Shown piece by piece: positions 27,457 through 54,143 of a stretch of 64,000 nt of DNA (within the stretch, counting starts at the first letter, position 1; every line of letters starts with the position of its first letter). This DNA is from Sulfurospirillum oryzae (lineage in GTDB: Bacteria > Campylobacterota > Campylobacteria > Campylobacterales > Sulfurospirillaceae). Made by a program: the position numbers and the translations under genes. The notes beneath the pieces are model-generated. The model was not told the origin of the DNA and ran no database searches. It saw only the letters and a program-made list of their open reading frames with translations. The DNA is taken from assembly GCF_025770725.1 (NCBI RefSeq), contig NZ_JANZKZ010000001.1, forward strand, positions 62,001 to 126,000, written 5' to 3'.

Positions 27457-27508
27457 TCTATCTCCAACTTTTCAATATTCACACACAATTTTTGAACTCT
27501 TTTTTGTT

Positions 27509-27518: not shown

Positions 27519-27525
27519 GGTTTAT

Positions 27526-32765: not shown

Positions 32766-32774
32766 TCGATACTT

Positions 32775-33725
32775 TTAAACCCTTGCATACATTTGAATTT
32801 GATGCTGTAAATCTTCAACATCCAGTTTATGAATAACATGATCCACGCCATGCCTTTTTGCTTGTTCTATGATGGATGGATTCGCCATATTGGTATTCAT
32901 AATAAACGGTATATCTCGAAGTCCTGCTTTGCTTTTGACCTCTCTTAGCAATGCCATGCCATCCATCACTGGCATCTCAATATCACTTAAAATCAAGGCA
33001 ACATTTTCAAGTTCAAGGCTCAAAAGTCGCTCTAATAAATCTTTACCATTATCAAAGACTTCAAAATCTAGCTCCATCTGCGAAAGGGCTAAACTAACGG
33101 CATGCTGAACGATCTTACTATCATCAGCAAATAAAATTTTCTTCGTAAGATCTAATTTATTTAAGATATTAACTTTCCCCAGTTCTCGCTCGTGCGCTTC
33201 TGAGAATACTTCACTTAAAAGTGTATCGGAGTTAAAAATCACACACAGTTTCTTTTCACCAGCGATATAAAGCTCTGTTATCTGCGCCGTTTTTGGGTCA
33301 CGAGATGAATTGTCGATGAGCTTATCGGCTTCAATGTTTTGAATCCCAATCACATTTTTAATGATGATGCCAACGCGTTGATGTCCAAAGTTACAGACAA
33401 CGACAAGCTCATAAAAACATCCCTCTGCCTCGCCTTTGCCCAGCCATCTGTCAAAATGGATGATCGAGCACATCTCATCGCGAATCTTCGCGGTTCCAAC
33501 AAGTGTGCTGGTAGCATCCGAATTTTTAGCGATATTAAGCTCTTTATTAACGATAAGTTCTTCCACTTTAGCCACATTGATCGCATAAAGCTCGTCATAG
33601 CCATTGCGAAAAATGACATACTGCGAAGTCACATCCGCATTGGATGTAACTAAACGGATAAGCTCATCACTACTATCAATCTGATTGGCTGAACTTTGTT
33701 TCTCTTTTACTTCAACTTCTTGCAT
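32775..33725 (-). CDS. cheV: CheV, CheW-receiver coupling protein
   Basis: 316 residues: CheW domain about 30-180 (QYVIFRNGYDELYAINVAKVEE, split here for length, and GTAKIRDEMCSIIHFD) followed by a receiver domain about 192-314 with ILSDIEMPVMDG. CheV couples receptors to CheA and can act as a phosphate sink. AAGGAA precedes the ATG. The first 30 residues are acidic and probably disordered. Confidence 0.9.
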   Translation of the reverse strand: MQEVEVKEKQSSANQIDSSDELIRLVTSNADVTSQYVIFRNGYDELYAINVAKVEELIVNKELNIAKNSDATSTLVGTAKIRDEMCSIIHFDRWLGKGEAEGCFYELVVVCNFGHQRVGIIIKNVIGIQNIEADKLIDNSSRDPKTAQITELYIAGEKKLCVIFNSDTLLSEVFSEAHERELGKVNILNKLDLTKKILFADDSKIVQHAVSLALSQMELDFEVFDNGKDLLERLLSLELENVALILSDIEMPVMDGMALLREVKSKAGLRDIPFIMNTNMANPSIIEQAKRHGVDHVIHKLDVEDLQHQIQMYARV

Positions 33726-33735
33726 TTAAGTTCCT

Positions 33736-34230
33736 TTATAATGTACGTTTTTGCGTAACACGGGAGAGTTCGCTCAAATCAAGAATGCCATTCATATCTA
33801 AAAGGGTGATAAACCGCTCTTCAATGCGTGCCATCATTTGCATAAAATCTTTACGAATTTTTGCACCAAATTCAGGGGCTTCCATCTTATGAGCAAGCGT
33901 GATTTCGTAGACTTGATCCACCATATCTACGATGAGTCCTATCTCGCACTCATCGCCGCCAATCATCGCTTCAATGGTAATAATGCAGCTCTTTTTACTA
34001 ATATCACTCATCCCCAAACCAAGTCTTGCTGAAAGATCAAGTACGGGAATAACATTGCCACGAATGTTGGTCACACCTACGACAAAACGCTCCATCGTAG
34101 GTACATGGGTTATCTGCGTATATTCGATGATCTCTTTGACATAAGCAACATTGATAGCAAATCTCTCGTTTTTTAAAAAAAACGAGAGGAACTGATTGCC
34201 CTCAGGATTTTTATGGGTTATATCTGCCAT
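33736..34230 (-). CDS. cheW: CheW, coupling protein
   Basis: 164 residues, single CheW domain (QFLSFFLKNERFAINVAYVKE, split motif; VTNIRGNVIPVLDLSARLG). Links CheA to receptors. Located between the poly-HAMP MCP and cheV with short gaps, GAGGA before the ATG. Confidence 0.94.
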   Translation of the reverse strand: MADITHKNPEGNQFLSFFLKNERFAINVAYVKEIIEYTQITHVPTMERFVVGVTNIRGNVIPVLDLSARLGLGMSDISKKSCIITIEAMIGGDECEIGLIVDMVDQVYEITLAHKMEAPEFGAKIRKDFMQMMARIEERFITLLDMNGILDLSELSRVTQKRTL

Positions 34231-34240
34231 CAGATCCTCA

Positions 34241-36538: not shown

Positions 36539-36585
36539 TGGCTCTTCCTTAATGTATATTTTTTACTTTGTTTACGTTAATTAAT

Positions 36586-38580
36586 TTATGCGCTTTTTGA
36601 TTCATCTATTCCACCTTTAAGGGTGAGAATAAAATTAATCAACATTGGCACATCTAAAATGAGTGCCACCGTACCGCTACCTAAGATAGTTGCTCCACTA
36701 ATACCTTTGAGTGCATGAAAGATTTTGCCTAAAGGCTTGATGACGGTTTGAAACTCTCCAAACAGCTCATCGACAATAAAGCCATAACGACGCCCCGCAT
36801 AATGCACCACAACGATGTTCGCCCTCGCATCTTCATTTTTTTGCTCATCGAAAAAAGCGCCGATGTTGAGAAGTGGCAAAATGCTTCCTCGAAGGTTAAT
36901 GTAGTTGTTGCCGTGCATCTCTGCTTTTTCTTTATCATTGATTTCGATGCACTCAACCACCATATCCAAAGGTACAACATAAAATGTCTCACCCACTTTG
37001 ACCAAAAAGCCATCGATGATCGCTAAGGTTAAAGGAAGCCTGATGATCAGTGTTGTTCCCTCTCCTTTTTTACTTTTAATTTCGATGTCACCACGAAGTG
37101 CTTCGATGTTTCGCTTCACCACATCCATGCCTACTCCTCGTCCGGAGAGGTCAGTAACAGCAGGTGCGGTAGAGAAACCAGGGGCTAAGATAAGTTTATA
37201 AATCTCTTGTTGAGAGAGCACCACGCCTTCTTCAATCAGCCCTTTTTCCACCCCTTTTTTGTACAACATCTCTTCATCAAGCCCTTTACCATCATCGCTG
37301 ATTTCGATGACAACGGTTCCAGCATCATGGTAAGCGTTAAGCGTTAAAGTTCCTTTATGAGATTTATCGCCTCTATCACTTGGAAGTTCGATACCATGGT
37401 CAATGGCATTGCGGACGATGTGAACGAGAGGATCGGTAATTTTTTCGACCACTGTTTTGTCCAGTTCTGTCTCCCCACCTTTAATGACAAGGTCAATCTC
37501 TTTGCCTAGCTTTTTAGAGAGATCCATTACGATGCGTTTAAACTTGTTAAAGGTTTCCCCAATTTGCACCATACGAATTTGCATCGCACCCTCTCTGATG
37601 TCCTCAAGCATTCGTGAAACGATAGAGACAGACTCAATCAGTTCAGAGTTTTTCATGTCGATGGATTGTTGCACCACATTGGCATTTGCGATGACCATTT
37701 CACCGATCAGATTGATGAGTTGGTCAATTTTTTCTGCATCCACACGAATACTATAAGCCGTTGGTTGTGCTTGCGTTGTCGTTTTTTTGACCTCTTCTTT
37801 TGGAGATTGTCTAGCGGTAACACTCTGTGTTGAAACAGCGGTAACCTGCTCATTTAAGACAATTTCGCAATCATCTTTAATAAAATCAAACACATCTAAA
37901 ATCTCTTCTTTACTCATTGACGTTGTAAATTCAATCTCAAAAGAGAGATAGCATTGTGTCGGATTTAATGCTTCAATCACAGGAATGGAAGTGACATGAA
38001 CCTTTGCATCAAAAGTAGCTGAGTTTTTACGAAGATACGCCAAAAAGCTGGCTGGTTCAAACCCTTGCTCCATAATGCTATGCCCTAGTTTCAACTGCAT
38101 GGTCCATTCTTTTTCAACCAAAGGGGTAATAGGTGCAGAGGTGCTTACGTCTACGGCATGGTGCAAAGAAATAGGCATGATCTCATTTAAAGAGGCTCCC
38201 AATTTTTTAGTCATGTCGCACAGCTCTTGTGTTGGAGCTTCTTCGTTACATGTAAGCACTGCAAACTCGACAAGATGCTGTATATGGTCTTTACATTCTA
38301 AAAGTAGCTCGCTTAATTCATCACTCATAGCAATCGTTCCATTGCGGACTTGATCGAGCACATTTTCAGCGATATGGGTAAACTCTACAACAAAATCAAT
38401 CTTGTACATACCTGCCGCACCCTTAATGGTGTGCGCTGCACGAAAGACTGCATTGATCGCTTCATCATCCATCCCATTTTCACGGATATACACCAAAGAG
38501 TTTTCCATAGCCTCAAGCAGTTCAATACTTTCAATATGAAACTCTTTAGCAATATCACTAAATTGCAATGTCGAATTCAT
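36586..38580 (-). CDS. cheA: CheA, chemotaxis histidine kinase (no receiver domain)
   Basis: 664 residues from ATG 38580, with AAAGGAG upstream. HPt domain with His50 (RAAHTIKGAAG), P2-like region, dimerisation helix pair, HATPase (HIVRNAIDHGIELPSDRG, EISDDGKGLD, GRGVGMDVVKRN) and a C-terminal CheW-like domain ending ILDVPMLINFI. It lacks the C-terminal receiver found in the main CheA of Campylobacter and Helicobacter, consistent with an accessory system. ATGA overlap with the STAS gene. Confidence 0.95.
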   Translation of the reverse strand: MNSTLQFSDIAKEFHIESIELLEAMENSLVYIRENGMDDEAINAVFRAAHTIKGAAGMYKIDFVVEFTHIAENVLDQVRNGTIAMSDELSELLLECKDHIQHLVEFAVLTCNEEAPTQELCDMTKKLGASLNEIMPISLHHAVDVSTSAPITPLVEKEWTMQLKLGHSIMEQGFEPASFLAYLRKNSATFDAKVHVTSIPVIEALNPTQCYLSFEIEFTTSMSKEEILDVFDFIKDDCEIVLNEQVTAVSTQSVTARQSPKEEVKKTTTQAQPTAYSIRVDAEKIDQLINLIGEMVIANANVVQQSIDMKNSELIESVSIVSRMLEDIREGAMQIRMVQIGETFNKFKRIVMDLSKKLGKEIDLVIKGGETELDKTVVEKITDPLVHIVRNAIDHGIELPSDRGDKSHKGTLTLNAYHDAGTVVIEISDDGKGLDEEMLYKKGVEKGLIEEGVVLSQQEIYKLILAPGFSTAPAVTDLSGRGVGMDVVKRNIEALRGDIEIKSKKGEGTTLIIRLPLTLAIIDGFLVKVGETFYVVPLDMVVECIEINDKEKAEMHGNNYINLRGSILPLLNIGAFFDEQKNEDARANIVVVHYAGRRYGFIVDELFGEFQTVIKPLGKIFHALKGISGATILGSGTVALILDVPMLINFILTLKGGIDESKSA

Positions 38581-38876
38581 TCGGCTCCTTTTCCTTGTGT
38601 ATTCCAATCAAATCCAAACAGAAGCATGAAGTTGTGTACAGAATTGGTAATGCCATTGATTTCAAAAGATTTCTGTGATGATTCACAGCTTTTCTGAAGA
38701 GAGACCAATAGTTGAAATCCAGCCGAATCAATTTTGTCGAGTTGCGAAAGATCGACATACAACCTTTCAGCGGATGAGATTAATTTTTTCACTTTTTCAC
38801 TAAACTCTTCAACTTGATAGATAGTCAGCTCTCCGGATGGATTTACATGTAAAGAACTTTCTTTGAGTGTTATCAT
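38577..38876 (-). CDS. STAS-domain protein in the chemosensory operon
   Basis: 99 residues, one STAS domain: GELTIYQVEEFSEKVKKL, then YVDLSQLDKIDSAGFQLLV with the serine (IDSAG) that is phosphorylated in anti-sigma-factor antagonists, and LFGF near the end. STAS proteins of this type partner with HPK-like kinases; between cheY and cheA it may be phosphorylated or bind the array. The start region contains a TTACATGTAA copy (38843-38852), encoding SLHVN. Confidence 0.88.
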   Translation of the reverse strand: MITLKESSLHVNPSGELTIYQVEEFSEKVKKLISSAERLYVDLSQLDKIDSAGFQLLVSLQKSCESSQKSFEINGITNSVHNFMLLFGFDWNTQGKGAE

Positions 38877-39432: not shown

Positions 39433-40128
39433 ATGGTCAAAAACCTGTTAGTACTAAAAAACAAAACGGTTCTCTTTGCAGAAGATGATGCGATTATGAG
39501 AGAGCAAACAACTGAGATATTAAGTATGATTTTTAAAAAAGTCTATGTGGCAAAAGATGGTGAAGAGGCTTACGACTTGTACGAAGATGAAAAACCAGAC
39601 CTTATCATCACCGATATTAAGATGCCTAAGAAAGATGGGTTAAAGCTGATTAAACAGATACGTCAGAAAGACTATACAACCCCTATTGTTTTACTGACAA
39701 GTTTTGCAGATTCCGATATGCTGATCAATGCGGCTAACCTCTCTATTGATGGGTATCTCATCAAGCCTATTGAATTTGACCAACTCATTCTTAGTGTTTG
39801 CAGTGCAATACAGCGCACCCAACAAGACCTTGGACTCATTAAACTCAAATCCGATCTTTTTTACAATGCAAGCACACAGGAAATATATTACAAAGGGGAT
39901 GTCATCACGTTCGGTGCTAAAGAGCAAGAGTTACTTTTATTGCTTCTTCGCAATCGCCATAAAACCATTACAAAAGAAGAGATAGCAGCTGCATTATGGC
40001 CGCTTGATCCTATCTGTGATTCCGCTATCAAAAATCTTATTTTACGTATTCGTAAAAAATTAGGCGAAGACCTTATTGTTTCAGTCCGCGGAATTGGTTA
40101 TCGACTCAACACCCGCATGATGTATTAA
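39433..40128 (+). CDS. OmpR-family response regulator
   Basis: 231 residues: receiver 10-125 with AEDDAIMREQ, acceptor Asp61 (LIITDIKMPKKDG) and YLIKPIE; C-terminal winged helix 140-225 (TFGAKEQELLLLLLRN, SVRGIGYRLN). The next gene on the strand encodes a 7TM histidine kinase with giant PAS array, the likely partner. Its own promoter and that of the PAS-GGDEF-EAL gene carry the same 11-bp direct repeat. Confidence 0.92.
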   Translation: MVKNLLVLKNKTVLFAEDDAIMREQTTEILSMIFKKVYVAKDGEEAYDLYEDEKPDLIITDIKMPKKDGLKLIKQIRQKDYTTPIVLLTSFADSDMLINAANLSIDGYLIKPIEFDQLILSVCSAIQRTQQDLGLIKLKSDLFYNASTQEIYYKGDVITFGAKEQELLLLLLRNRHKTITKEEIAAALWPLDPICDSAIKNLILRIRKKLGEDLIVSVRGIGYRLNTRMMY

Positions 40129-40263
40129 AGTTCTTGCAAAGCTCATTTTGCAAGAAAAAAAAGAACCAAAGGTGCGTGGGCGTTCTGCCGAGGAAAACCC
40201 AGTGTTAACGTAGTCTTTAGAGCTTTGCTTTAAAGACGTGTTTAGAGTTCTGCAAGAACTCTA
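40129..40263 (+). ncRNA. Structured intergenic region with competing hairpins
   Basis: Between the regulator and the giant kinase gene: stem 1 at 40131-40156 (TTCTTGCAAA / TTTGCAAGAA, 6-base loop), stem 2 at 40213-40237 (GTCTTTA / TAAAGAC), stem 3 at 40243-40263 (TAGAGTTCT-GCA-AGAACTCTA). AGTTCTTGCA at 40129-40138 is also perfectly complementary to 40251-40260, so stem 1 and stem 3 can be replaced by a long-range helix. No U-tract follows, so it is not a simple terminator. Could be an attenuator, an RNA-processing site or a small RNA; the structure is seen, the role is not. Confidence 0.4.
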
Positions 40264-40292
40264 TTAAGAAACTCACTTATAAATCTTGAAGG

Positions 40293-43200
40293 ATGAAACA
40301 CACAATGTATTGGCGCATCATACTGTTTATCATGACATGTTTTTTACCACTGAGTGCTTTTGAATCCTTTCAAATTTTAGATGAACATCCTTCTATTTTG
40401 GTTTCAAAACCATTATCTTATACCACGGGGAACCTCTCCCCGTTAGAAGCGCACCATGCATTTGCGCAAAACCATTTTCAACCACTTCCTGCACAGGCAA
40501 AAAGTTTCGGCTTTTCCAATGAGCCTATTTGGTTAGGGATTGAAATACAAAATAGCTGTGTCCATAATCTTCTTATGGGGCTTCAAAATTTATCTCTAGC
40601 ACATATTGAGTATTATATTTTTCAAAAAGACATATTGATACAACAAGGGAAAACAGGAGCAAGTGTACCTATAATTGAGCGTCCTATCAAAAGTTTGGAC
40701 CTTCGTATTCCTTTGCTTGAGACAAGTGAACCCACACTTTATTTAATCAAAATAGAAACACATAGCCCATTATTTCTCCCTATTGTTATAGGTACGGATG
40801 GAGCGTTGCAACTTTTCATCTTACCAGAGATTATCACGATTGCTATTTTTACAGGCATTTTTTTAGCACTCTTTTTGTACAATAGTATTCTTTTTATTTC
40901 CACGAAAGAGAAAGATTATTTACTCTACTCGTTGTACATCTTTTTTCTCTTTGCCTTAATGCTTTCCACACGCGAATACTTTGCACCTTTTTTACAAACA
41001 AATCTTCATTTGCAAGACACTATTAAACTTTTAAGCCTTCAAGGAAGTACCCTCTTTATGGTGCTTTTTTCACTCTCATTTTTAAATATAAAAACACTTT
41101 ATCCAAGTCTCTATAAACGTACTCTTCTCTTGAGTGCTCTTTATTTCATACTCTTTTTTACCATACCTTTTATTGAAGTTGAAACGGGACAAAATCTTAG
41201 GGTTATGACAATTATCTTTGTTGTCTTTACCTCTGTGTTTTTAGGTATTTTTTCACACCTGCGTGGCAATACGTTTGCTAAATACTATCTTATCGCATCA
41301 AGCGGCTTTTCAATAAGTGCCATTATCTCTATGGCTATGGCACAGGGATTTATTCCTTATACCTACATGACATACAATGCAACTATTTTTGGTGCTGTTT
41401 GGCAAATTATTCTTTTTTCCCTTGCACTTGGCTATAAAATAAAGCTTCTATACCGCGAACATACCAAAGCCATGACACACATTCAAACCCAAAACAAGAT
41501 GCTTTTTTTACAATCTCGTTATACCTCGGTGGGAGAATTGATCCGAAATATTACCCACCAATGGAAAGAACCTTTAGGAGAAATAGGTTCTATTCAAACC
41601 AATCTTAAAAGTACTCTTGTTTTTCAAGGCAGTGTTAGCAATGAGAAACTCCTTAATGCCATTAATCTCAGTCACAAGATTATCGCGCATTTATCTGAAA
41701 CCATTGATACGTTTTACCGTTTTTTTCGCGCAAAGACAACTGAAAATCAAGAATTTGACATTACCAAAGAGATAGATAATCTCCAAAGAATGGTTAAATA
41801 CACATTTGATTGTGAACAAATTGAGCTTACATGTAAATACAGTGAACGTCCCATTCTTCTGTGTGGACATCCCAATGAATTTGCACATGCTATTTTGAAC
41901 ATTATTCTTAATGCCAAAGATATTCTTATACGACGCCACATTAAGAATCCTAGAGTCAGTATTGATGTATCAACCACGCCAACCAATATTATTATTCACA
42001 TTGAAGATAATGGTGGAGGCATTTTACAAGAACCTATTAGTAAGATTTTTGATGCTGGGATAAGTTCCAATGAAGAGAATATCGGTATTGGTCTGTATAT
42101 TGCTAAAACGATTGTAGAACAAAAAATACAAGGTCGTATTTCTGTCAAAAATAGCGATGTTGGGGCAATTTTCACCCTAGTGCTTCCACATGGTACATGC
42201 GAATCTACATACTCCAACCCTATGCCCTCTTTTATGAATATGGAAGAGTCTGCTATAGCGCGTATTTCGAGATTAGAAAAAGATATTGCGCGACGTATTG
42301 AAGTAGAAAAAAACCTTAAGCAGTGGGCACATATCTTTGAAAACGTTCATTGGGGAATTGCTATTTGTAATGTCACAACCAATACCTTTGACCTTATCAA
42401 TCCAGAATTTGCACACATGCATGGTTTTAGTGTTGAAGAGTTATTAAATCAGCCTATTGAAACTATTTTTTCACCTAAACGCATAGCCCAAATACCTGAA
42501 GTTCTTAAAATTGTTCACGAAGAAGGACACTACGTATTTGAATCAGAACATCTTTGTAAAAATGGCTCAACGTTTCCTGTTGACATTGATATGATCGCTG
42601 TTCAATCAGAGCAAGGCGAAATCTTATACTACATTGTCAATGTTCGAGACATCACGCTTTATAAACAGATGCATGAGCAAATGCTCCTCAAAAAATTCGC
42701 ACTTGATCACATTCAAGACGCTGTATTTATGATAGATGAAAACGCACATTTTTATTATGTCAACCAAGGTGCTTGTACGGCGCTAGGATACAGTGACGAA
42801 GAATTTGAGCAGATGAATGTAGGCGACATAGACCCTGATTGGCCACAAGAGAAGTGGAAAGAGCATTGGAACATGCTCAAAGACGCAGGTTCAATGACGA
42901 TGGAGTTAAGGCATAAACGCAAAAACGGAACGATTTTCCCTGTTGAAGTAAGCGCTAACTATATTGCATTTGGTGGGAAAGCTTACAATATGGGAATTGC
43001 GCGAGATATTAGTGAACGCCTTCTTCTTGAAAAGCAAAAAGAAGACGAACGTATGCGCCTCTTTTTTGAAAAACAGCTGGTGGGTATGGCAATCACTTCG
43101 CCAGAAAAGGGGTGGTTACATACAAATGAAAAACTCCAGCAGATGCTTGGCTATACAAATGAAGAGCTAAAAAAGTTGACATGGGTAGAGTTAACGCATC

Positions 43201-46200
43201 CTGATGACCTCGCTTCTGACCTTGTGTACTTTAACAAACTACTCAAAGGCGAGATTGAAGATTATATACTTGAAAAACGGTTTATGAGTAAAGACGGCAC
43301 CATCGTCTATACCACCCTTGCGGTAAGCTGTGTCCGTAACAATGATCACTCTGTCAACTATGTTCTAGCTCTCGTTGAAGACATTACTGAGCAAAAGCTT
43401 TCGCATGAAGCACTAGCTCAAAAAGAGCAAGAACTTCGCTTGTTAGCAGATTCATCCCCAGGTATGATGGGCAGTTTTTGTTTACGAAGCGATGGATCTA
43501 TTTATATGCCTTACGTTTCACCCAATATTGTAGATCTTTTTGGATTACAACCTGAAGATGTGAACAAAGATGCGATGTCCCTTATGGCACTTACCCATCC
43601 AGATGATGCGCAAAGAATCAACGAGTCCATTGCAAAATCAGCCGAAGAAATGAGTGTATGGCATGAAGAGTACCGCATCATTCACCCACTCAAGGGTGAA
43701 CGTTGGATGGAAAGTAACACCAAACCAGAGCGTAACGCCAATGGCGAAATAACGTGGTACGGTTATGTTCATGACATTACGGAGCGTAAACAGAGTGAAC
43801 TGGCTTTAGATGAAGTACGTCAACGTCTTCAGTGTGTGCTTCAAGGTATTCCTGATCCCGTATGGATGAAAGATGCTAATGGTCATTTTCTCGCTTGTAA
43901 TCACGGTGTTGAGCGTCTTTTCAATACAAAAGAAGAAGATATTATCGGCAAAGATGATTACGACTTTTTCGAGCCTGAACTTGCAGAATTTTACCGCAAT
44001 AAAGATCGCTCTGCCGCTGAAGTTGATTATGGTCGTGTTAACGAAGAGCTATGGACGTTTCGTGATAATGGGGAGCAAGCACTCATGGAAACCCGCAAAG
44101 TTCCTGTCAAAAGCTCAGATGGCAAGCTGATCGGTGTCCTTGGGGTGGCACGTGACATTACTGAGCGCAAAAGAATTGAAGAGAAATTAAAACGAAGTGA
44201 AGCAAGTCTTAATAAAGCGCAGAATATTGCCAAAATAGGAAGCTGGGAGCTTGATATTGACAGTGATACACTCACATGGTCAGATGAAACCTATAGAATC
44301 TTTGAACTTAACCCAGAACAGACCACAGAACTACACAAAACATTTTATGAGATTGTCCATCCTGATGATAGAGAGATGGTCAGTAGTTTATACGTAGAGT
44401 CCGTAAAAACAAAACTCCCTTATGCTGTGGCACATAGAATTGTGATGCGTGATGGACGCATCAAGCATGTCTTGGAAACATGTGAAACACAGTACGACGA
44501 AGATGGAAATCCCAAATTATCGATAGGTACAGTACAAGACATTACAGAGCGCAATCAGATGGAAGTGTCGCTCAAAGAATCCAATGAACGCTATACACAA
44601 ATTCTTGATAATAGCATTGATGTCATTTACCTAATCGAAGTAACCCCAGAGGGACATTTTATCTATGTGGACGTCAACACTGCCTTTGTTGAAGTTACAG
44701 GAATCCCACGTGAGGTGGTCATTGGTCTTCGCGTAGAGGAAATCGAAGACGAAACATTCCGTGCTATCCTCATCGATAAATTTACCACATGCCTCAATGC
44801 AGGAGAAACAACCAACTACGTCGCCGACTATCCGTTCCCTGCAGGCATCAGGACGTTTCATTCTGTCCTTGCTCCTATACGAGATGAAAATGGGAGAATT
44901 GTCCGTATCGTAGGTGCAGCTAGGGATATTACGGAACGTCAAAGAACAGAGGAGATGATCAAAGAACTTAATGCTACGCTTGAAGCAAAAGTTGAAAAGC
45001 GAACTCTGCAACTCCAACAAGCTTTAGAGTTTAGCAATGGGGTTATCAACGCTTTACCCGATTTACTATTTGAAATTGACTTAGGTGGCACATATCTCAA
45101 TGTTTGGGCACGCGATGAAGAGCTTCTTGCCAGACATAAAAAGCTTTTATTAGGTCACAATGTTTACGATGTACTTTCTCCTGAAGCGGCTAATACGGTG
45201 ATAGAAGCACTAAGCGAGGCAAATACTAAAGGAGTTTCTTTCGGTAAGACAATCAAAATAGAACTATCTCAAGGAGCAATGTATTTTGAAGAGTCCGTTT
45301 CCAAGAAAATGTCAAGTGGTACATTTCTTGTCCTCTCTCACGACATAACAGAACGAAAAAAAGCAGAGCTCGAACTGCAAGAGAGAGAAGAAAAGTTCTC
45401 AAAGCTTTTCAAACTAAGCCCAGCAGCTATTTCAATTACTTCGCTGGAGCGCAATATGTATTTAGATGTTAATGATAGCTTCCTCTATCATACCGGATAC
45501 ACATACGAAGAAGTTGTGGGTAAAAGCAGTGCGGAACTAGGTATATTTGTTAATCCCGAAGAGCGAGCAGAATTTTTCCGCAGAGTGATGGAAGATGGCT
45601 ATGTCAAAGACTTTAATTATACGTTTAGAGCAAAAAATGGTACTATTGGATATGCCATGGCGTATGCTTCTCTTATAACATTTAAAGGAGAACGTTGCCT
45701 TATTGGACATAGCTACGATATGTCTGAGCGTAAAAAAATCGAGATACTTCAACATGAGAGACTTGTACTTGAAGAACGCCTCTCCAAAATAGCAACGGCC
45801 GCCCCTGGTGTTAATTATATCTTTGAAAAAACGGCTGAAGGCAACATGCATTTTACTTACGTTGCCTCTGGATTTACAGATTTATTTGGCATTTCATGTG
45901 ATGATGCCCTCACTGATTTTGCTGCTGTCATGGAGCACATACACCCAAGCGATAGAGACATCATACGACAAAGTCTTGTCAAAACCGAACAAAATTTGAG
46001 TAAATGGCATGAAGAGTTCCGCGTCAATCACCCTGAAAAAGGAACTCTATGGATTGAAGGACAATCCAAACCTGAAGCCCAGATGGATGGTAGCATCCTT
46101 TGGTATGGCTTCTTTCATGATGCGACGGAACGTAAAGTTGCAGAAGGAGCACTGGCAAAAAGTGAAGAAGCATTTCGCGCCATTGTCGAAAACTCACCTG

Positions 46201-46541
46201 ATGTCATTGCACGTTATGACTTGTCATACCGACGCATTTACGTCAATCCAATGATGCAACGTCTTTTAAATAGACCCATCGAAGAACTTCTTGGAGAAAG
46301 ACCTAGTAAAAACACACCTCTGCCAAAAGCTATAGATTTTGAAAAGCTTTTAGCACGTGTTATTCAAGACAAGCAAGAAATAACCTTTGAAGCACCTTTC
46401 TCTACGCCTGATGGCGAGGAGCATTGGGGTAACATTCGCATTATTCCTGAAATGAATACACAAGGAGAAGTTATGAGTGTATTAATGCAAGGAAAAGACA
46501 TTACGCAACAAACAGAAAAGGGCGCTATAACGCATGAATAG
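40293..46541 (+). CDS. Giant 7TMR-DISM histidine kinase with about 11 C-terminal PAS domains
   Basis: 2082 residues. Signal-like helix 1-22, periplasmic DISMED2-type domain about 25-170, seven membrane helices about 178-395, histidine kinase about 400-640 with phospho-acceptor His422 (ITHQWKEPL), N box (LNIILNAKDIL) and G boxes (EDNGGGI, NIGIGLYIAK). Then, instead of ending, about 11 PAS/PAC repeats from 675 to the C-terminus, most closed by a DITERK-type PAC tail, with a coiled coil near 1555-1575. Placing the kinase before the PAS array is the reverse of usual. Probable partner of the upstream response regulator. Overlaps the next gene by 8 bases. Confidence 0.87.
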   Translation: MKHTMYWRIILFIMTCFLPLSAFESFQILDEHPSILVSKPLSYTTGNLSPLEAHHAFAQNHFQPLPAQAKSFGFSNEPIWLGIEIQNSCVHNLLMGLQNLSLAHIEYYIFQKDILIQQGKTGASVPIIERPIKSLDLRIPLLETSEPTLYLIKIETHSPLFLPIVIGTDGALQLFILPEIITIAIFTGIFLALFLYNSILFISTKEKDYLLYSLYIFFLFALMLSTREYFAPFLQTNLHLQDTIKLLSLQGSTLFMVLFSLSFLNIKTLYPSLYKRTLLLSALYFILFFTIPFIEVETGQNLRVMTIIFVVFTSVFLGIFSHLRGNTFAKYYLIASSGFSISAIISMAMAQGFIPYTYMTYNATIFGAVWQIILFSLALGYKIKLLYREHTKAMTHIQTQNKMLFLQSRYTSVGELIRNITHQWKEPLGEIGSIQTNLKSTLVFQGSVSNEKLLNAINLSHKIIAHLSETIDTFYRFFRAKTTENQEFDITKEIDNLQRMVKYTFDCEQIELTCKYSERPILLCGHPNEFAHAILNIILNAKDILIRRHIKNPRVSIDVSTTPTNIIIHIEDNGGGILQEPISKIFDAGISSNEENIGIGLYIAKTIVEQKIQGRISVKNSDVGAIFTLVLPHGTCESTYSNPMPSFMNMEESAIARISRLEKDIARRIEVEKNLKQWAHIFENVHWGIAICNVTTNTFDLINPEFAHMHGFSVEELLNQPIETIFSPKRIAQIPEVLKIVHEEGHYVFESEHLCKNGSTFPVDIDMIAVQSEQGEILYYIVNVRDITLYKQMHEQMLLKKFALDHIQDAVFMIDENAHFYYVNQGACTALGYSDEEFEQMNVGDIDPDWPQEKWKEHWNMLKDAGSMTMELRHKRKNGTIFPVEVSANYIAFGGKAYNMGIARDISERLLLEKQKEDERMRLFFEKQLVGMAITSPEKGWLHTNEKLQQMLGYTNEELKKLTWVELTHPDDLASDLVYFNKLLKGEIEDYILEKRFMSKDGTIVYTTLAVSCVRNNDHSVNYVLALVEDITEQKLSHEALAQKEQELRLLADSSPGMMGSFCLRSDGSIYMPYVSPNIVDLFGLQPEDVNKDAMSLMALTHPDDAQRINESIAKSAEEMSVWHEEYRIIHPLKGERWMESNTKPERNANGEITWYGYVHDITERKQSELALDEVRQRLQCVLQGIPDPVWMKDANGHFLACNHGVERLFNTKEEDIIGKDDYDFFEPELAEFYRNKDRSAAEVDYGRVNEELWTFRDNGEQALMETRKVPVKSSDGKLIGVLGVARDITERKRIEEKLKRSEASLNKAQNIAKIGSWELDIDSDTLTWSDETYRIFELNPEQTTELHKTFYEIVHPDDREMVSSLYVESVKTKLPYAVAHRIVMRDGRIKHVLETCETQYDEDGNPKLSIGTVQDITERNQMEVSLKESNERYTQILDNSIDVIYLIEVTPEGHFIYVDVNTAFVEVTGIPREVVIGLRVEEIEDETFRAILIDKFTTCLNAGETTNYVADYPFPAGIRTFHSVLAPIRDENGRIVRIVGAARDITERQRTEEMIKELNATLEAKVEKRTLQLQQALEFSNGVINALPDLLFEIDLGGTYLNVWARDEELLARHKKLLLGHNVYDVLSPEAANTVIEALSEANTKGVSFGKTIKIELSQGAMYFEESVSKKMSSGTFLVLSHDITERKKAELELQEREEKFSKLFKLSPAAISITSLERNMYLDVNDSFLYHTGYTYEEVVGKSSAELGIFVNPEERAEFFRRVMEDGYVKDFNYTFRAKNGTIGYAMAYASLITFKGERCLIGHSYDMSERKKIEILQHERLVLEERLSKIATAAPGVNYIFEKTAEGNMHFTYVASGFTDLFGISCDDALTDFAAVMEHIHPSDRDIIRQSLVKTEQNLSKWHEEFRVNHPEKGTLWIEGQSKPEAQMDGSILWYGFFHDATERKVAEGALAKSEEAFRAIVENSPDVIARYDLSYRRIYVNPMMQRLLNRPIEELLGERPSKNTPLPKAIDFEKLLARVIQDKQEITFEAPFSTPDGEEHWGNIRIIPEMNTQGEVMSVLMQGKDITQQTEKGAITHE

Positions 46542-49500
46542 ATTCAAGTATGTTCTTAACCATACAAAAGTTGGAATGGCTGTATGGAGTACCAAAGATA
46601 ATCGCTTTAAGTTTATGAACACCGCTTTTGCACACATACATGGCTATGAGTCAGATGAACTTTTAGGCGCAGATGTCAGACACCTTTTTGCACCAGAAAG
46701 TATGCAACGCCTAATAGAATGTGAAAACAATCCCGCATGTTTTCATGCGGGAGATATGTTCTTTGAGGCCATTCACCTTAAAAAAACAGGGATAGAAGTT
46801 CCTCTTAACATACACATTACGATCGTAAAGGATGATAGCAATATTGTAAAACACTTCATTGCTCATATTATAGATATTAGCAATCACAAAAAAACAGATA
46901 CAAAACTAGCAATCATGACCAATGTACAAGAGAGTGAACTCCTTCGTTCAATTGCACAAAATATACCTGGATTTGCTTTTATATACAAGCTCCATCCTGA
47001 TGGCAAAGAGGAATTTGTGTACGCTAGCGATAAAATACTGGACACGTATGGCATAGATGCTCCAACCGTACTCTCCGATATTAGAACATTAAGAAACCTA
47101 TTTTATTCTGACGATATGCCACACTTTAGAGCCGCCATCAATGAATCAGCCAAAACACTTCAGCCATTTCACGCTGAATTTAGAATCAATCATCCGCAAA
47201 AAGGCATAAGATGGTTGGAATCAAACTCTATACCAACAGCACAAACCGACGGCAGTATTCTATGGCATGGCATTACAATGGATATTACAAGCCGTAAAAA
47301 TGCAGAACAAGCATTGAGTAAAACAGCAACCCATCTCTCATCCTTAGTCAATACCCTACCCGATCTTGTCTGGATGAAAAATACAGAAGGTACGTATCTT
47401 ACATGTAACCATGCATTTGAGCGATTTTTTGGAGCATCCGAGTGTGAGATTGTTGGTAAAACTGATTATGATTTCATTGATTACAAACTAGCTGATTTTT
47501 TTAGGCAAAAAGACAAAGAAGCCATTGAAAAAGGTAACATTTGCACCAATGAAGAAGTCATCACTTATAAAGATACAGGTACTACAGGTATACTTGAAAC
47601 ACGAAAAGTCCCTATCTTCAACCCAGAAGGAGAGGTATACGGAGTACTCGGTATTGCCAAAGATATTACAGAACAGAAAAAAGCAAAATTAGAACTTCAA
47701 CATCAAAGCAATTTACTAAACTCCATACTAAACAGCTCACCAAATGTCATTATATTTGCTTTGGATACAGAGTATAGGTATTTGACCTTCAATCAAAATC
47801 ATAAAAAAACGATGAAAGCACTATGGAATGAAAATGTAAGTATTGGTATGAATATACTAGAAAGCATAACACGCCAAGATGATAGGCATAAAGCTAAAAA
47901 GCTTTTTGATAAAGCGCTTGCTGGAGAGTATTTTGTTGATGAAACCAGCTATGGTGAAGATCATTTTGTACGCAGTTACTGGCAAACCTTTTATTCTCCT
48001 ATGTATAATCATAATGGCACAATTACAGGTCTAACTTGTTTTAATCTGGATATTACCGAACAAAAAAAGGCAAAAGAGAATCTTCTTCTTAAAGAGTTTG
48101 CTCTCGATAAAATCAATGAAGCCGTATATCTCATCGACAAAGACGCTATGTTTCACTATGTCAATGAGAGAGCCTGTCGTGATTTAGGCTATAGTAAAGA
48201 AGAGCTTCTGACAATGGGCGTTGTTCATATCGATCCCAATATATCAATAGAACTGTGGCATGAACTCTGGCAGGGTATAAAAGAATTTAGATCAATGACA
48301 AGCAAGCATAAACGAAAAGATGGGACGCTCTTTCCTATGGAAGTAAGTTCCAGCTATTTTGAATACAATGGCATACCCTATACTCTTGCGATTGTTCGTG
48401 ACATCACTGAGCGCAAAGCACAAGAAGAAGCTATAGCACAAAGAGAGCGAGAATTTAGAACTCTCACCGAAAACTCTCCCGATACCATCGCTAGATTTGA
48501 TCAGGAGTGTCGTCGCACTTACGTCAATCCTGCTTTTGAACGAGTCCTTGGTCTTTCATCGAAAGATGTCTTAGGGAAAAAACCATCTGAAACGACTCCT
48601 GTAGAAAATGCCTTTGCTTTTGAAAAACAGTTACAAGAAGTTTTACGAAGCGGAAAAGAGTTTACAACAGAAACACCTTATACTGATTGCACAGGTAAAC
48701 ACGGTACAGGACACATTCGTATGCTTCCAGAGTTTGGAAAAGATAATCAAATTGTTAGTGTTATATGTATAGGTAGGGATATAACAGAGCGCAAAAGAAT
48801 GGAAGAAGAATTAGCAAAAAAAGAAGAAGCGTTCCGCACCATCACAGAGCATACCCCTGACACCGTTGTTCGTTTTAACCGCGAGTGCAAACGCACCTAT
48901 GTCAACCCAAGTACCATTCGCATGACTGGGCTTTTGGAAGAAGAACTTTTAGGTGCAAAACCCTCGGATTTTTCGCCGCTTAAAGATAGCCTGTTGTTTG
49001 AAAAAACTTTGATAAAGGTCATTGAAACAGGAGAAGAAGCGACACTGGAGATGGAATTTGTAAGCCCTTTAGGGGAGAAAGGCTGGCGCCATTTGCATAT
49101 CGTTCCCGAAATAGACATCAACGGTGAAATTAGCAGTGTTTTGGCAATTGGACGAGACATTAGCGAACATAAAAAAATAGAACTTCAATTAAGAGACAGC
49201 GAAATCATCTTTCAAGAAGCACAACGTATCGCTAAAATTGGCAGTTGGAAGCTTGATATTGCCACCCAAGCCATTACATGGTCTGAGGAAATGTACCGTA
49301 TTTTTGAGATAGATCCACAAAGTACGAAGTCTCGTCGTAAACTCTTCATGGAGATTATTCATCCAGAAGATTTATCGTATGTAAAAGAGATCCATTATCA
49401 AGCACAAAAAAAATATATGCCGTATGAGACAACGCACCGAATTTTACTGAAAAATGGAACACTCAAATACATTCATGCCAAAGCCATTACCTACTACGAT

Positions 49501-50874
49501 GACAATCAAAACGCCGTTTCGATTATGGGAACCGTGCAAGATGTGACAGAACAAAAGATGGTCGAGAAGCAAGTAGAGTTTTTAGCGCACCACGACGCAC
49601 TCACCGAACTGCCCAATCGTATGCTAGCCCAAAGCAGATGCGAGCAGTCCATCGCGTATGCCAAACGCAATAGCTCTAAAGTCGCTCTTTTGTTTATAGA
49701 TATTGATGGCTTTAAAACCATCAACGACTCTTTAGGTCACGCCTTTGGCGATATGATGCTCAAGATGGTTGCAAGCAGGCTTAAAAAGTACATTCGCCAA
49801 ACCGATACCCTAAGCCGTCAAGGAGGCGATGAATTTTTAATGATGCTCACCGATGTGGAAGATGTAGATGATGTTTCTACTGTTGCGCAAAAGCTTTTAA
49901 GAGAGTTTGAAAAACCGTTTCAACTCGATACCCATAGCATCTCTTCTTCTATCTCGATAGGTATTGCGTTGTACCCTGATGATGGGAAACACTTTGATGC
50001 CCTCCTCCAACGTGCTGATACCGCAATGTATAAAGCCAAAGAAGCGGGACGCAATACTTACTGCTTTTTTACAGAAGCGATGAATAAGGAAATCTTTGAA
50101 CATCTCCATATTCAAAACGATTTGAAACAAGCACTTGTTCAACAACAGTTTGTTTTGCATTATCAACCGCAAATTGATCTTGAAACCAATACCATCAGTG
50201 GAGTGGAAGCGCTTTTACGATGGAATCATCCCAAAAATGGGCTTGTTCCACCTATGAAATTTATCCCTATTGCTGAATCTTCTGGGCAAATTTTAGAGAT
50301 TGGAGAGTGGGTCATATATGAAGCATGCCACCAAGCTTCTAAGTGGCATCAACAAGGCATAAACATCACCATGGCAGTCAATATCTCGGCGATACAATTT
50401 AAACGAGGAAATCTGGAGCAGGTCATTCAAAAAGCGCTTGAAAGTTCAGGTCTAAACCCGCAATATCTGGAATTAGAACTCACCGAATCCATTTTGATCC
50501 ATGATACTGAAAATGTCCTTCATGCTATCAGAAGGCTTAAGATTTTAGGCATTAAACTTTCCATTGATGACTTTGGTACAGGGTATTCGAGTCTTTCATA
50601 TCTCAAACGTTTTGCCGTCGATAAGCTTAAAATTGATCAATCTTTTGTAAAAGATATATCCAAAGACCAAGAGGACGCCATCATCGTCAAAACCATTATA
50701 CAAATGGCAAAAAGCCTTAATCTCAAAACCATTGCAGAAGGCGTAGAAACGAAAGAAGTCTTGGAAATCATCAAAAGTCACGATTGCGATGAAGTACAAG
50801 GATTCTATTTTGCAAAGCCTATGTGCGCAGAAGATTTTATTCACTATTTTTCACAAAAAGAGTTTACTGCATGA
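46534..50874 (+). CDS. Soluble multi-PAS GGDEF-EAL protein (about 8 PAS)
   Basis: 1446 residues, no membrane helix or signal peptide. About eight PAS/PAC modules (1-1010), then GGDEF about 1015-1180 with an intact GGDEF at 1097-1101 (SRQGGDEF) and EAL about 1190-1440 with GVEALLRW (Glu1225), DDFGTGYSSLSYL and KIDQSFV. Both c-di-GMP synthesis and hydrolysis could be active; in such hybrids the PAS part usually decides. AAAGGG lies upstream of the ATG. PAS modules 6 and 7 are close copies (FRT-TENSPDT type) related to modules in the next gene. Confidence 0.89.
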   Translation: MNRFKYVLNHTKVGMAVWSTKDNRFKFMNTAFAHIHGYESDELLGADVRHLFAPESMQRLIECENNPACFHAGDMFFEAIHLKKTGIEVPLNIHITIVKDDSNIVKHFIAHIIDISNHKKTDTKLAIMTNVQESELLRSIAQNIPGFAFIYKLHPDGKEEFVYASDKILDTYGIDAPTVLSDIRTLRNLFYSDDMPHFRAAINESAKTLQPFHAEFRINHPQKGIRWLESNSIPTAQTDGSILWHGITMDITSRKNAEQALSKTATHLSSLVNTLPDLVWMKNTEGTYLTCNHAFERFFGASECEIVGKTDYDFIDYKLADFFRQKDKEAIEKGNICTNEEVITYKDTGTTGILETRKVPIFNPEGEVYGVLGIAKDITEQKKAKLELQHQSNLLNSILNSSPNVIIFALDTEYRYLTFNQNHKKTMKALWNENVSIGMNILESITRQDDRHKAKKLFDKALAGEYFVDETSYGEDHFVRSYWQTFYSPMYNHNGTITGLTCFNLDITEQKKAKENLLLKEFALDKINEAVYLIDKDAMFHYVNERACRDLGYSKEELLTMGVVHIDPNISIELWHELWQGIKEFRSMTSKHKRKDGTLFPMEVSSSYFEYNGIPYTLAIVRDITERKAQEEAIAQREREFRTLTENSPDTIARFDQECRRTYVNPAFERVLGLSSKDVLGKKPSETTPVENAFAFEKQLQEVLRSGKEFTTETPYTDCTGKHGTGHIRMLPEFGKDNQIVSVICIGRDITERKRMEEELAKKEEAFRTITEHTPDTVVRFNRECKRTYVNPSTIRMTGLLEEELLGAKPSDFSPLKDSLLFEKTLIKVIETGEEATLEMEFVSPLGEKGWRHLHIVPEIDINGEISSVLAIGRDISEHKKIELQLRDSEIIFQEAQRIAKIGSWKLDIATQAITWSEEMYRIFEIDPQSTKSRRKLFMEIIHPEDLSYVKEIHYQAQKKYMPYETTHRILLKNGTLKYIHAKAITYYDDNQNAVSIMGTVQDVTEQKMVEKQVEFLAHHDALTELPNRMLAQSRCEQSIAYAKRNSSKVALLFIDIDGFKTINDSLGHAFGDMMLKMVASRLKKYIRQTDTLSRQGGDEFLMMLTDVEDVDDVSTVAQKLLREFEKPFQLDTHSISSSISIGIALYPDDGKHFDALLQRADTAMYKAKEAGRNTYCFFTEAMNKEIFEHLHIQNDLKQALVQQQFVLHYQPQIDLETNTISGVEALLRWNHPKNGLVPPMKFIPIAESSGQILEIGEWVIYEACHQASKWHQQGINITMAVNISAIQFKRGNLEQVIQKALESSGLNPQYLELELTESILIHDTENVLHAIRRLKILGIKLSIDDFGTGYSSLSYLKRFAVDKLKIDQSFVKDISKDQEDAIIVKTIIQMAKSLNLKTIAEGVETKEVLEIIKSHDCDEVQGFYFAKPMCAEDFIHYFSQKEFTA

Positions 50875-53800
50875 GTCAATCATACAACAATACCCAAGAA
50901 CTACTACCAACAAAGAATTCTGAAAAAAAGCACGAGTTTCACTCTTTAGCTGAAAATGTGCATGACCCCATTTATCGTTACGATAGCCATTGCCGACGCA
51001 CCTATGTTAATCCAGCAGTCGAAAAACTTTGTGGAAAAGAAGCCTCAACGCTACTTGGCAAAACGCCTGTTGAATCTTTACTCGTAACGCCTGATGATAG
51101 CTTGATTGTCATGAAAAGCCTTCAATATGTCATTGAGACAGGTAAGGTTGATACGGTTGAAGTTACCTTTAAAAAAGATGATGGAAGTTACCGTTACTAT
51201 CAACATTTACATGTACCAGAGTTTTCACATGATGGAACAGTAGGAAGTGTTTTAGCTATTGGTCGCGATATTTCAACGCACAAAAACCTACAACAAGAAC
51301 TACTTTCTCGTGAGCAAATGTTTCGTACATTGGCAGAGAATTCTCCCAGTATCATTATACGTTACGATAGAGAATGCAAAAGGATGTATGTTAACCCTAC
51401 CTACACTGAGCAATTAGGTATCCCCCTTGAGCAAGCTATCAATACAACACCCAGTTCTCAATGGAATTCTTATATTCACATGCACACAATCAGTGCAGAA
51501 GAGTACCAAAAAAGAATCTTGCATGTCATTCAGACAGGAATTCCTACACAGTTTATCGTCGAATGGGAGCGCCATTACGATCAACAATACTTCATACATG
51601 ATGTACATATTGTCCCAGTAAAAGATGCTCATGGCAATATCACTGGAGCACTCGTACTAGGACACAATATTACCGCATTTAAACAGCAAGAAGCTATTTT
51701 ATTGACCAAAGAGCTAGAGTTTCGCACCCTTGCTGAAAACTCACCTGACACCATAGTACGCTATGATCAAAATCTTAAACGCATCTATGTCAATGCTGCA
51801 TGGGAGAAAGCTAACGCTCTTTCACGCAATGAGATTTTAGGGAAAAGTCCAAAAGATCAAGCAGGACGCATTACAGATAGTGTCGATGAATTTGAGGCAA
51901 TGCTGCAACGTGTTTTAAACACAGGAAAAAGTGAAGAGTTTGTGTTAGAATGGAAAAATAAAGAAGGAAAAATATTTTTCTTTAGCTTTTACTCCGTTGC
52001 TGAATACGATGGATCATCAAGTAATATTATCTCTGTTTTAACTATTTCCCGAGACATTACATCGTATAAAGAGCTAGAATGTGCACTCTCTTCTAAAGAA
52101 CAACTTTTCCGTGCACTTGCGGAAAATTCTCCCGATTCAATTATTCGCTACGATACATCGTGTCGTAAGATTTATGTCAATGCAATGGCAACTAAAACAT
52201 TTGCTCGCTCCGCTACTGAACTGCTTGGAGAGACACCAACAGAAGCAGAGTTGCTTTTAAATTACAAAGAATTTGAATTAAAACTCAAAGAAGTGATTCA
52301 GACCAAACAAGAATCGATGATAGAAGTTTCAACAATCTCATCGGGCGAGCAGATTTGGGCTGAGGTGCGCCTTATTCCTGAATTTGATGACCATGGAGAA
52401 CTTATAAGCGTTCTAGCCGTTGGAAGGCATATTACAAAACGCAAACAACTTGAGATGCACCTTAATGCGACTCTCTCTCAATTTGAGCAATTTGTTAACA
52501 ACATAACCGAAATGGCATGGATTAAAGATAAAGAGAGCCATTATGTCATGGTTAATCAGGTTCTTGCCAATCGATTTGGCGTTATGGCTAAAGATATGAT
52601 TGGAAAACATGATTCTGATTTTTTCGATGAAAAAACATCAGAAGAACATATTGAAGTCGATTCACAAGTCATGAAAGAAGGGATCACAATCAAAATTGAA
52701 GAGATGATTTCATCCAATCCAGATCATGAGATATGGATTGAGAGCATTAAAAATCCTTTTAGAAATAGTAATGGAGAAATCATTGGTACCATTGGAACAG
52801 CTCGCGATATAACGGAACGTAAACACGCTGAAAGACAAATGGCGTATATGGCACAACACGACACACTCACAGCGCTTCCAAATCGAGCCTTGGCAAAAGA
52901 TAGAGCTGAACAAGCTATTGCTCATGCTAAACGCAATGAAAGTAAAGTTGCTTTTTTATTTATTGATCTTGACAAGTTTAAAGATATTAACGACTCGCTT
53001 GGGCATCTTGCAGGTGATACAATACTCAAACTAATCACATCACGATTAAACGCATGTATCCGTGAAACCGATACATTAAGCAGACAAGGCGGTGATGAGT
53101 TCTTGATTATTCTCCCAAATATTCAAAATTCAAGTGATGCCCTTCTCTCAATAGATAAAATTTTTCAAATGCTAGAAGAGCCTTTTACCCTTGGAAGCCA
53201 TACCCTTTTTATGTCTGTTTCGATTGGTGTTTCACTCTACCCTGATGATGGCGTGACGTTTAACAGACTTTATCAAAGGGCAGATATTGCCATGTACCAA
53301 GCAAAAGCTCAGGGTCGCAACACATACACATTTCACTCTTCCACTATCAGTTCCACGATGATCGAACAGTTGAAACTACAAAATGATCTAAGAACCGCGG
53401 TTAAAAACAGCGAATTTATGCTTCACTATCAACCGCAAATTGATTTGAGGAATCAACACATTACAGGCGTTGAAGCGCTCATTCGCTGGATGCACCCAGA
53501 ACGTGGTCTCATTTCTCCTCTGACGTTTATTCCTCTTGCAGAATCAAGTGGATTGATCGTAGAGATAGGTGAATGGGTGTTAATAGAAGCCTGCAAGCAA
53601 GCCGCACTTTGGCATCAAAAACAACTTTTTATCAACATTGCGGTTAACATCTCAGCCATTCAGTTCAAGCGGGGTAATCTTGAAGCCGTTGTTCAAAAAG
53701 CGCTTAAGATTTCAGGGTTAGATCCAAAATTCTTAGAACTTGAACTCACCGAATCTATCTTTATTCACAACACGCAAGAGACGCTTAAAACCATTCAGAA

Positions 53801-54143
53801 TCTGAAAGAAATTGGTATCATGCTCTCGATTGATGATTTTGGGACAGGGTATTCAAGCCTAACGTACCTCAAACGATTTTCTGTCGATAAGCTTAAAATT
53901 GATCAATCATTCATTCGAAATCTTCTTCAAAATCAAGAAGATGCCGTTATTGTCAAAACGATTATTCAAATGGCAAAAAGCCTCAATCTTAAAACGATTG
54001 CGGAGGGTGTTGAAGATAAAACTGTTTTAAAAGCCATTAGTGATTATGGCTGCGATGAGGTTCAAGGATATTATTTCTCAAAACCTCTAGAAGCGCATTA
54101 CATTGCTCCACGCATTGACAAAACGATGAAATGGGTAAGATAA
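50871..54143 (+). CDS. Soluble multi-PAS GGDEF-EAL protein (5 PAS)
   Basis: 1090 residues from ATG 50871, which overlaps the preceding stop as ATGA; a longer frame adds 16 residues inside the upstream gene. Five PAS/PAC modules (about 20-650; four start with the FxxLAENSPD pattern), GGDEF with intact motif at 740-744 and EAL with Glu868 (GVEALIRW). The GGDEF-EAL half is strongly similar to that of the previous protein, so the two arose by duplication. Ends four bases from the convergent P-box sensor gene. Confidence 0.9.
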   Translation: MSQSYNNTQELLPTKNSEKKHEFHSLAENVHDPIYRYDSHCRRTYVNPAVEKLCGKEASTLLGKTPVESLLVTPDDSLIVMKSLQYVIETGKVDTVEVTFKKDDGSYRYYQHLHVPEFSHDGTVGSVLAIGRDISTHKNLQQELLSREQMFRTLAENSPSIIIRYDRECKRMYVNPTYTEQLGIPLEQAINTTPSSQWNSYIHMHTISAEEYQKRILHVIQTGIPTQFIVEWERHYDQQYFIHDVHIVPVKDAHGNITGALVLGHNITAFKQQEAILLTKELEFRTLAENSPDTIVRYDQNLKRIYVNAAWEKANALSRNEILGKSPKDQAGRITDSVDEFEAMLQRVLNTGKSEEFVLEWKNKEGKIFFFSFYSVAEYDGSSSNIISVLTISRDITSYKELECALSSKEQLFRALAENSPDSIIRYDTSCRKIYVNAMATKTFARSATELLGETPTEAELLLNYKEFELKLKEVIQTKQESMIEVSTISSGEQIWAEVRLIPEFDDHGELISVLAVGRHITKRKQLEMHLNATLSQFEQFVNNITEMAWIKDKESHYVMVNQVLANRFGVMAKDMIGKHDSDFFDEKTSEEHIEVDSQVMKEGITIKIEEMISSNPDHEIWIESIKNPFRNSNGEIIGTIGTARDITERKHAERQMAYMAQHDTLTALPNRALAKDRAEQAIAHAKRNESKVAFLFIDLDKFKDINDSLGHLAGDTILKLITSRLNACIRETDTLSRQGGDEFLIILPNIQNSSDALLSIDKIFQMLEEPFTLGSHTLFMSVSIGVSLYPDDGVTFNRLYQRADIAMYQAKAQGRNTYTFHSSTISSTMIEQLKLQNDLRTAVKNSEFMLHYQPQIDLRNQHITGVEALIRWMHPERGLISPLTFIPLAESSGLIVEIGEWVLIEACKQAALWHQKQLFINIAVNISAIQFKRGNLEAVVQKALKISGLDPKFLELELTESIFIHNTQETLKTIQNLKEIGIMLSIDDFGTGYSSLTYLKRFSVDKLKIDQSFIRNLLQNQEDAVIVKTIIQMAKSLNLKTIAEGVEDKTVLKAISDYGCDEVQGYYFSKPLEAHYIAPRIDKTMKWVR

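Follow-up and report, generated by a model that had tools for sequence, protein, structure and literature searches.

PAS arrays of a two-component system and two putative c-di-GMP enzymes in Sulfurospirillum oryzae probably evolve as exchangeable cassettes

How does a single locus come to hold 24 PAS modules, and what could be the role of those that stand behind the catalytic core of a histidine kinase? We addressed these questions in a stretch of 64,000 nucleotides of Sulfurospirillum oryzae DNA (contig NZ_JANZKZ010000001.1), hereafter the window, and in related genomes. The original prediction had described three overlapping genes for proteins of 2082, 1446 and 1090 residues, and the open reading frames confirmed these lengths as well as overlaps of 8 bp and 4 bp (ATGA); the length of the third protein, D2, was counted from an ATG, while the reading frame tool starts at the GTG at 50823, giving 1106 residues. 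That one of them is a kinase and the other two are c-di-GMP enzymes, as proposed, was likewise borne out by Pfam domains and intact catalytic motifs. As an inventory, the three genes stood, but three things had been overlooked: the regulator gene at 39433-40128, the receptor (7TM) half of the kinase, and the placement of the kinase's array after the core. This fourth gene, an OmpR-type response regulator, belongs with the three PAS genes, and the main interest of the locus lies in the array position behind the kinase and in what is probably a cassette-like mode of evolution. The features are as follows.

39433-40128, + strand: response regulator of REC-Trans_reg_C type, 231 aa (Pfam PF00072 and PF00486), probable kinase partner
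40129-40272, no strand: dispersed structured repeat of ~140 bp between the response regulator and kinase genes
40293-46541, + strand: sensor histidine kinase gene, 2082 aa, with 7TMR-DISMED2, 7TMR-DISM_7TM, kinase core and 11 PAS modules; no output domain after the array
40422-40790, + strand: 7TMR-DISMED2 periplasmic domain, kinase residues 44-166 (Pfam PF07696)
40836-41438, + strand: 7TMR-DISM_7TM membrane domain, kinase residues 182-382 (Pfam PF07695)
41478-42212, + strand: kinase core (Pfam HATPase_c, motif check and alignment)
42312-46514, + strand: 11 PAS modules forming the kinase array, C-terminal to the core
43401-43778, + strand: sharp-edged cassette of linker plus kinase PAS4 (82% nucleotide identity to genome G001, against 51-62% for the adjacent modules)
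46534-50874, + strand: D1 gene, 1446 aa, 8 PAS modules followed by GGDEF and EAL
46537-49560, 49585-50055 and 50116-50820, + strand: PAS, GGDEF and EAL regions of D1
50871-54143, + strand: D2 gene, 1090 aa, 5 PAS modules followed by GGDEF and EAL
50925-52826, 52851-53321 and 53382-54086, + strand: PAS, GGDEF and EAL regions of D2

HMM domain counting returned the same 11, 8 and 5 PAS modules as had been predicted, every domain with E <= 1.5e-23, values that are flattered by an HMM built from these same modules; TIGR00229 alone marked 9, 8 and 5 PAS stretches in kinase, D1 and D2. The set is indeed unusually large: 17 of the 51 PAS_9 matches of the whole genome fall into these three genes, and the other PAS reading frames, taken from 23 further genome stretches and the rest of the window, hold at most three modules each (36 modules in 28 frames). 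Simple patterns for the LOV cysteine motif and a FixL-like haem motif had no match in the three proteins, and searches of solved structures with P0001 and P0002 yielded no PAS relative from which a ligand could be concluded.

The receptor half of the kinase was identified by 7TMR-DISMED2 (54.3 bits, Pfam cut-off 22) and 7TMR-DISM_7TM (108.7 bits, cut-off 29). Motif patterns located the phosphoacceptor His-422 in HQWKEPL and the N (NAKD), G1 (DNGGG) and G2 (GIGLY) boxes, all of them present. The order of domains departs from the canonical one, in which PAS modules come before the core: the kinase core spans residues 396-640, and the whole array of 11 is found beyond residue 673. In both GGDEF-EAL enzymes the PAS modules precede the output domains. 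D1 and D2 each keep the GGDEF motif, the RxxD site, EAL, DDFGTGY and EGVE, and GGDEF was intact in all 11 output domains read; by these motifs, both are putative bifunctional enzymes. Structure prediction of the kinase core with PAS1 and PAS2, as a monomer and with nine sequences (mean pLDDT 77, pTM 0.44), gave values below 50 for fragment residues 241-263, after the ATPase domain, and placed a helix at 253-287 that runs up to PAS1 and a second one that connects PAS1 with PAS2. We read the low-confidence stretch and the helices that follow as a putative flexible tether and a helically chained array. An AlphaFold model of D2 (mean pLDDT 53.7) was too poor for use.

The regulator, whose receiver domain scored 93.9 bits (PF00072), is also encoded directly before the kinase in seven other loci (L040-L043, L075, L128 and L129) and is the probable phosphotransfer partner of the kinase. 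In relatives the two genes are separated by -4 to 21 bp; in the window the gap holds the ~140-bp repeat, which is absent there in the relatives read. This repeat has 37 matches in its own genome and 1-37 in each of the 24 genus genomes. Nine aligned copies keep several hairpins, with 5 of 34 predicted pairs changed on both sides, the ends (40123-40144 and 40245-40266) are 82% complementary, and the stretch scanned had no Rfam match; the repeat could be a REP-like or RNA element. Given the gene overlaps, a shared transcript of the three PAS genes is plausible, whereas co-transcription of the regulator with the kinase is less sure, because the dispersed repeat lies between them and may break it in this genome. 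Promoter-like sites (42, versus 41.3 in shuffles) and terminator-like sites (11 versus 11.1) occurred at chance level.

This layout suggests a path for signals. 7TMR-DISM kinases read external signals, and the kinase described here would read a periplasmic signal via its 7TMR-DISM half and transfer phosphate to the product of the regulator gene immediately before it. Within D1 and D2, helix-linked PAS modules may shift the cyclase/phosphodiesterase balance of the domains behind them; coiled-coil linkers carry signals from sensor to kinase and between consecutive sensor modules (PMC6798134). The kinase array, tethered flexibly to the ATPase domain, might serve as a second, cytoplasmic input, as a surface for dimerization or docking, or as both.

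Order-wide searches, one with the receptor half and one with kinase plus PAS1 as query, each over 398 genomes with up to four candidates scored per genome and the strongest inspected, were positive in at least nine of them: at least ten kinases with PAS modules after the core occur in at least nine Campylobacterales genomes and one Sulfurimonas MAG (JAABQD010000019.1). Within the genus, 4 of 24 genomes (the window's own, G001, G013 and G022) carry an array-bearing DISM kinase, in open frames of 1672-2083 residues; other members have 7TM kinases of ~630 residues without an array, a short form also found in the window's own genome (L080). Elsewhere in the order, we counted 8 PAS modules in G127, 9 in G133, 3 each in G258 and G091, 10 in G294, where the kinase is cut by the contig end, and 12 in the Sulfurimonas MAG, there behind a kinase without a receptor half. 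Array length across the 10 kinases ranges from 3 to 12 and changes by whole modules. The 7TM kinase genes in L017 (G011) and L018 (G010) look broken, the receptor-kinase match being split over shorter frames. A strict single origin of the array kinases was set aside, as two changes are required on the tree and grouping them in a single clade was weakly rejected (p-AU 0.034). Seven genus kinases without an array fall among the array kinases in this tree, which left out Q294 (cut by the contig end), matches shorter than 190 residues and duplicates, and in which Q258 is row L059_0.

The complete gene set, comprising the response regulator, the kinase with PAS array and one to three PAS-GGDEF-EAL genes, is found in the four genus species and in other families (G127, G133), and, with its order rearranged, in the Sulfurimonas MAG; in all of these the PAS-GGDEF-EAL genes adjoin the kinase, and the relatives read hold up to 9 PAS modules in such proteins. 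Searches of an open-access library, from which subscription journals are mostly absent, listed no publication that deals with this gene set or with PAS arrays located after the core of a kinase. The proximity of a kinase to two enzymes whose GGDEF and EAL are both intact would fit a feedback in which the kinase array senses the product of its neighbors, c-di-GMP or a co-regulated metabolite, by analogy with the PAS-B of CckA, which is reported to respond to c-di-GMP (PMC8534201). We consider such a feedback improbable, since no c-di-GMP site was identified in the array and since G258 and G091 have PAS modules after the core but no GGDEF-EAL gene on the stretch read.

The surroundings of the genes yielded further observations. 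In G133, a gene for a PAS-PAS-MCP chemoreceptor lies between the kinase-PAS and PAS-GGDEF-EAL genes (L128, 14865-16412), so chemotaxis may be part of the same circuit there. In the window, a chemotaxis-type set on the opposite strand (29807-38607; CheA-, CheW-, MCP-, CheV-, CheR- and CheB-like by eye) adjoins the cluster, and parts of it also stand beside the cluster in L041, L043 and L075. Two adjacent window genes (25765-29154) both match one G001 gene beside the cluster (L042, 15266-17029), at 69% and 83%, and are therefore a probable tandem pair. In the Sulfurimonas MAG, two consecutive response regulator genes precede the kinase-PAS gene (L040, 4381-5921).

Where, then, do the modules come from? 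Many of them had been taken for recognizably recent copies, and the original prediction had proposed to trace their duplications by module phylogeny. Comparison of 112 and later 141 modules from 22 proteins contradicted this view. The most similar pair within the window (W_HK.2/W_D1.5) is 51% identical and the FRTLAENSPD-type modules are 29-46% identical to one another, whereas identities to modules of other genomes reach 88%. Of the 24 modules, 21 are matched more closely in another genome than by any module of the window, usually at the corresponding place; as for the exceptions, W_HK.10 ties, and W_D1.6 and W_D1.8 fall just below. Every D2 module has a 65-84% match at the corresponding place in another species. 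Growth of these multi-PAS sensors by recent tandem duplication in this species would fit the high PAS count relative to the rest of the genome and the adjacent D1 modules 6 and 7, each of which scores best against the other (43%), but the low identities within the window and the better matches outside largely refute it, and we regard it as very improbable. The modules are old, common to several species and mostly not mutual nearest relatives.

For some modules, the gene that carries them differs between species: W_D1.5 shares 70% identity with module 4 of the MAG kinase and 66% with module 2 of the G001 kinase, and W_HK.7 shares 55% with the opening module of the G127 cyclase. Against the other PAS stretches fetched from their own genome, 22 of the 24 modules scored at most 65 bits and the remaining two 113 and 127 bits, compared with 100-235 bits for the same modules against the clusters of other species. 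Together they make up a pool that is almost exclusive to this gene family.

The arrays follow a grammar. With type labels assigned at one threshold, the first module type is identical in all 10 kinase arrays and the second in 9 of 10. The order test covered 8 kinase and 6 D arrays and excluded Q258 and Q091 (three modules) as well as the D2-lineage and Q133 D arrays. Kinase-array order was conserved, with a summed longest common subsequence of 143 versus 91.9 in shuffled arrays (0 of 2000 shuffles as good), and so was the order of D1-type arrays (43 versus 31.5; 1 of 2000). Between kinase and D arrays, with the first D1 type set by hand equal to the first kinase type because they are sister groups, the six same-genome pairs reached 13 versus 12.2 in shuffles (2030 of 5000 as good), and when every kinase-D pair was included, 134 of 2000 shuffles did equally well. 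A mirrored order of the two arrays, suggested by types common to W_HK and W_D1, was no better than shuffled.

These tests bear on two further explanations. If like PAS types paired across proteins, kinase, regulator and c-di-GMP enzymes could be united in one physical assembly. The conserved gene set, the module types common to kinase and D arrays, a kinase array without an output of its own and the known role of PAS modules as dimerization domains (PMC3949515, PMC8694187) are all consistent with this idea; yet it is unlikely, as the type order of kinase and D arrays from the same genome was no better than shuffled. Alternatively, the kinase and a PAS-GGDEF-EAL protein may once have been fused or have had a common ancestral array, with the part behind the kinase now drifting without function. 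The sister relationship between the opening modules of the kinase arrays and those of the D1 arrays (98/93), the lack of an output domain at the array end and the array-less kinases of the genus would agree with such a relic. The arrays of 8-12 modules, however, are in open frame in 8 of the 8 kinases that have them (one of the eight being front-less at a contig start), their order is conserved and some of their modules are 69-77% identical between genera, which makes a decaying relic quite improbable. A kinase-cyclase fusion split by a frameshift, an idea prompted by the 8-bp overlap, was rejected, because no such fusion occurs among the 22 proteins that were divided into modules.

Linker length was measured from the module end to a fixed column of the next module and could be determined for 103 of 119 junctions, 56 of which have 23 residues. 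It went with the type of the downstream module in 81 of 97 typed junctions (shuffle mean 54.6; 0 of 2000 as high), a count inflated by sequence kinship; linkers of type B have 19 residues (14 of 16) and those of type H have 21 (7 of 7). As linker length is set by the downstream type, the natural unit is a linker plus its PAS module. The lengths 23/30, 19/26, 21/28 and 41/48 differ by 7, but the longer ones were too few to claim a heptad periodicity. Whole-module change is most readily seen in the D2 lineage, where the window holds five types in order, G001 has the same without the second and third, G013 without the first, and G022 has two extra modules in front; all these differences between species are clean whole-module gaps.

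Comparison with G001 located the edges of such a unit in the kinase. Flanking genes of the two genomes are 89-95% identical at the protein level, compared with 75% for the regulator, 50% for the receptor half, 63% for the kinase, 33-54% for PAS1-3, 46% for PAS5 and 64% for PAS8, and with 74-84% for the D2 modules and 85% for the D2 output. Kinase PAS4 stands out at 87%. Its sliding nucleotide identity is 0.72-0.91 inside and falls to 0.44-0.57 past edges that coincide with module junctions, and its overall 82% equals the genome background of 82-89%, while 7TM, kinase, PAS1-3, PAS5 and PAS8 are at 51-66%. PAS4 may be the sole remnant of a kinase that was otherwise replaced, and not an incoming cassette; either it was exchanged or everything around it was, and recombination at module edges is needed both ways. 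To explain the pattern without recombination, constraint on this one module would have to be far stronger than on any of its neighbors.

A second case involves an enzyme. The D2 modules of G013 are 65-83% identical to those of the window, but its GGDEF-EAL output is 89% identical to the output of window D1 (381 columns) and only 60% to that of window D2, with a switch point near residue 600-630, just inside GGDEF. The background between the window and G013, given by two genes only, is 74% for CheA and 70% for the regulator; since the 89% exceeds the CheA value, transfer between species is indicated. By sequence, the two junction-sharp chimeras demonstrate recombination of arrays and of cyclase domains, either between species or between genes. 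In trees, a single clade for the kinases of the four genus members was not rejected (p-AU 0.116 for module 1, 0.148 for type H), so they do not prove single-module exchange, and loss of old paralogues is a possible account of module 1 and type H.

Overall, the sequence comparisons document the gene set, the domain order, the array grammar, whole-module gain and loss, the linker rule and breakpoints at module edges or just inside GGDEF. We favor, as the probable explanation, that a two-component system is coupled with two c-di-GMP enzymes and that the PAS arrays of all these proteins evolve as exchangeable cassettes. Homologous, frame-compatible linkers would act as recombination points for the loss, gain and exchange of linker-plus-PAS cassettes, and species could thereby re-tool the sensing of the same enzymes. 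A combined version, in which cassettes move between genes and species at linkers and like cassettes also pair across proteins, so that one hub is re-tooled by exchange, appears rather improbable to us. The natural series of arrays of 3-12 modules, all following a similar kinase core, together with the grammar, linker rules and breakpoints of the series, makes it testable how long PAS chains pass signals and what an array behind a kinase does, and it suggests a route by which bacteria may alter the sensing of a signaling enzyme while leaving the enzyme unchanged.

Among known systems, 7TMR-DISM kinases with OmpR-type regulators resemble the kinase described here in their DISMED2 and 7TM receptor, HQWxxPL core and adjacent REC-Trans_reg_C gene; unlike them, it carries up to 11 PAS modules behind the ATPase domain. 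Chains of PAS modules within a histidine kinase are also familiar from CckA and FixL. In CckA, they are located N-terminal to the kinase. The same holds for the tandem PAS of FixL (PMC8534201), so that in both proteins the PAS modules precede the kinase, whereas here they come after the core. D1 and D2 share with DosP the position of PAS upstream of intact GGDEF and EAL, and full-length DosP was among the solved relatives of the D1 output half. They differ from DosP-type PAS-GGDEF-EAL proteins in reaching up to 9 PAS modules in relatives, in whole-module gain and loss, and in a chimera that joins the array of one gene to the output of a neighboring gene. Finally, truncation, swapping and transfer are known to rewire c-di-GMP networks, as described in a review (PMC10333796); compared with these cases, the present locus is distinguished by repeated cassette-wise change and by module types common to kinase and cyclases.
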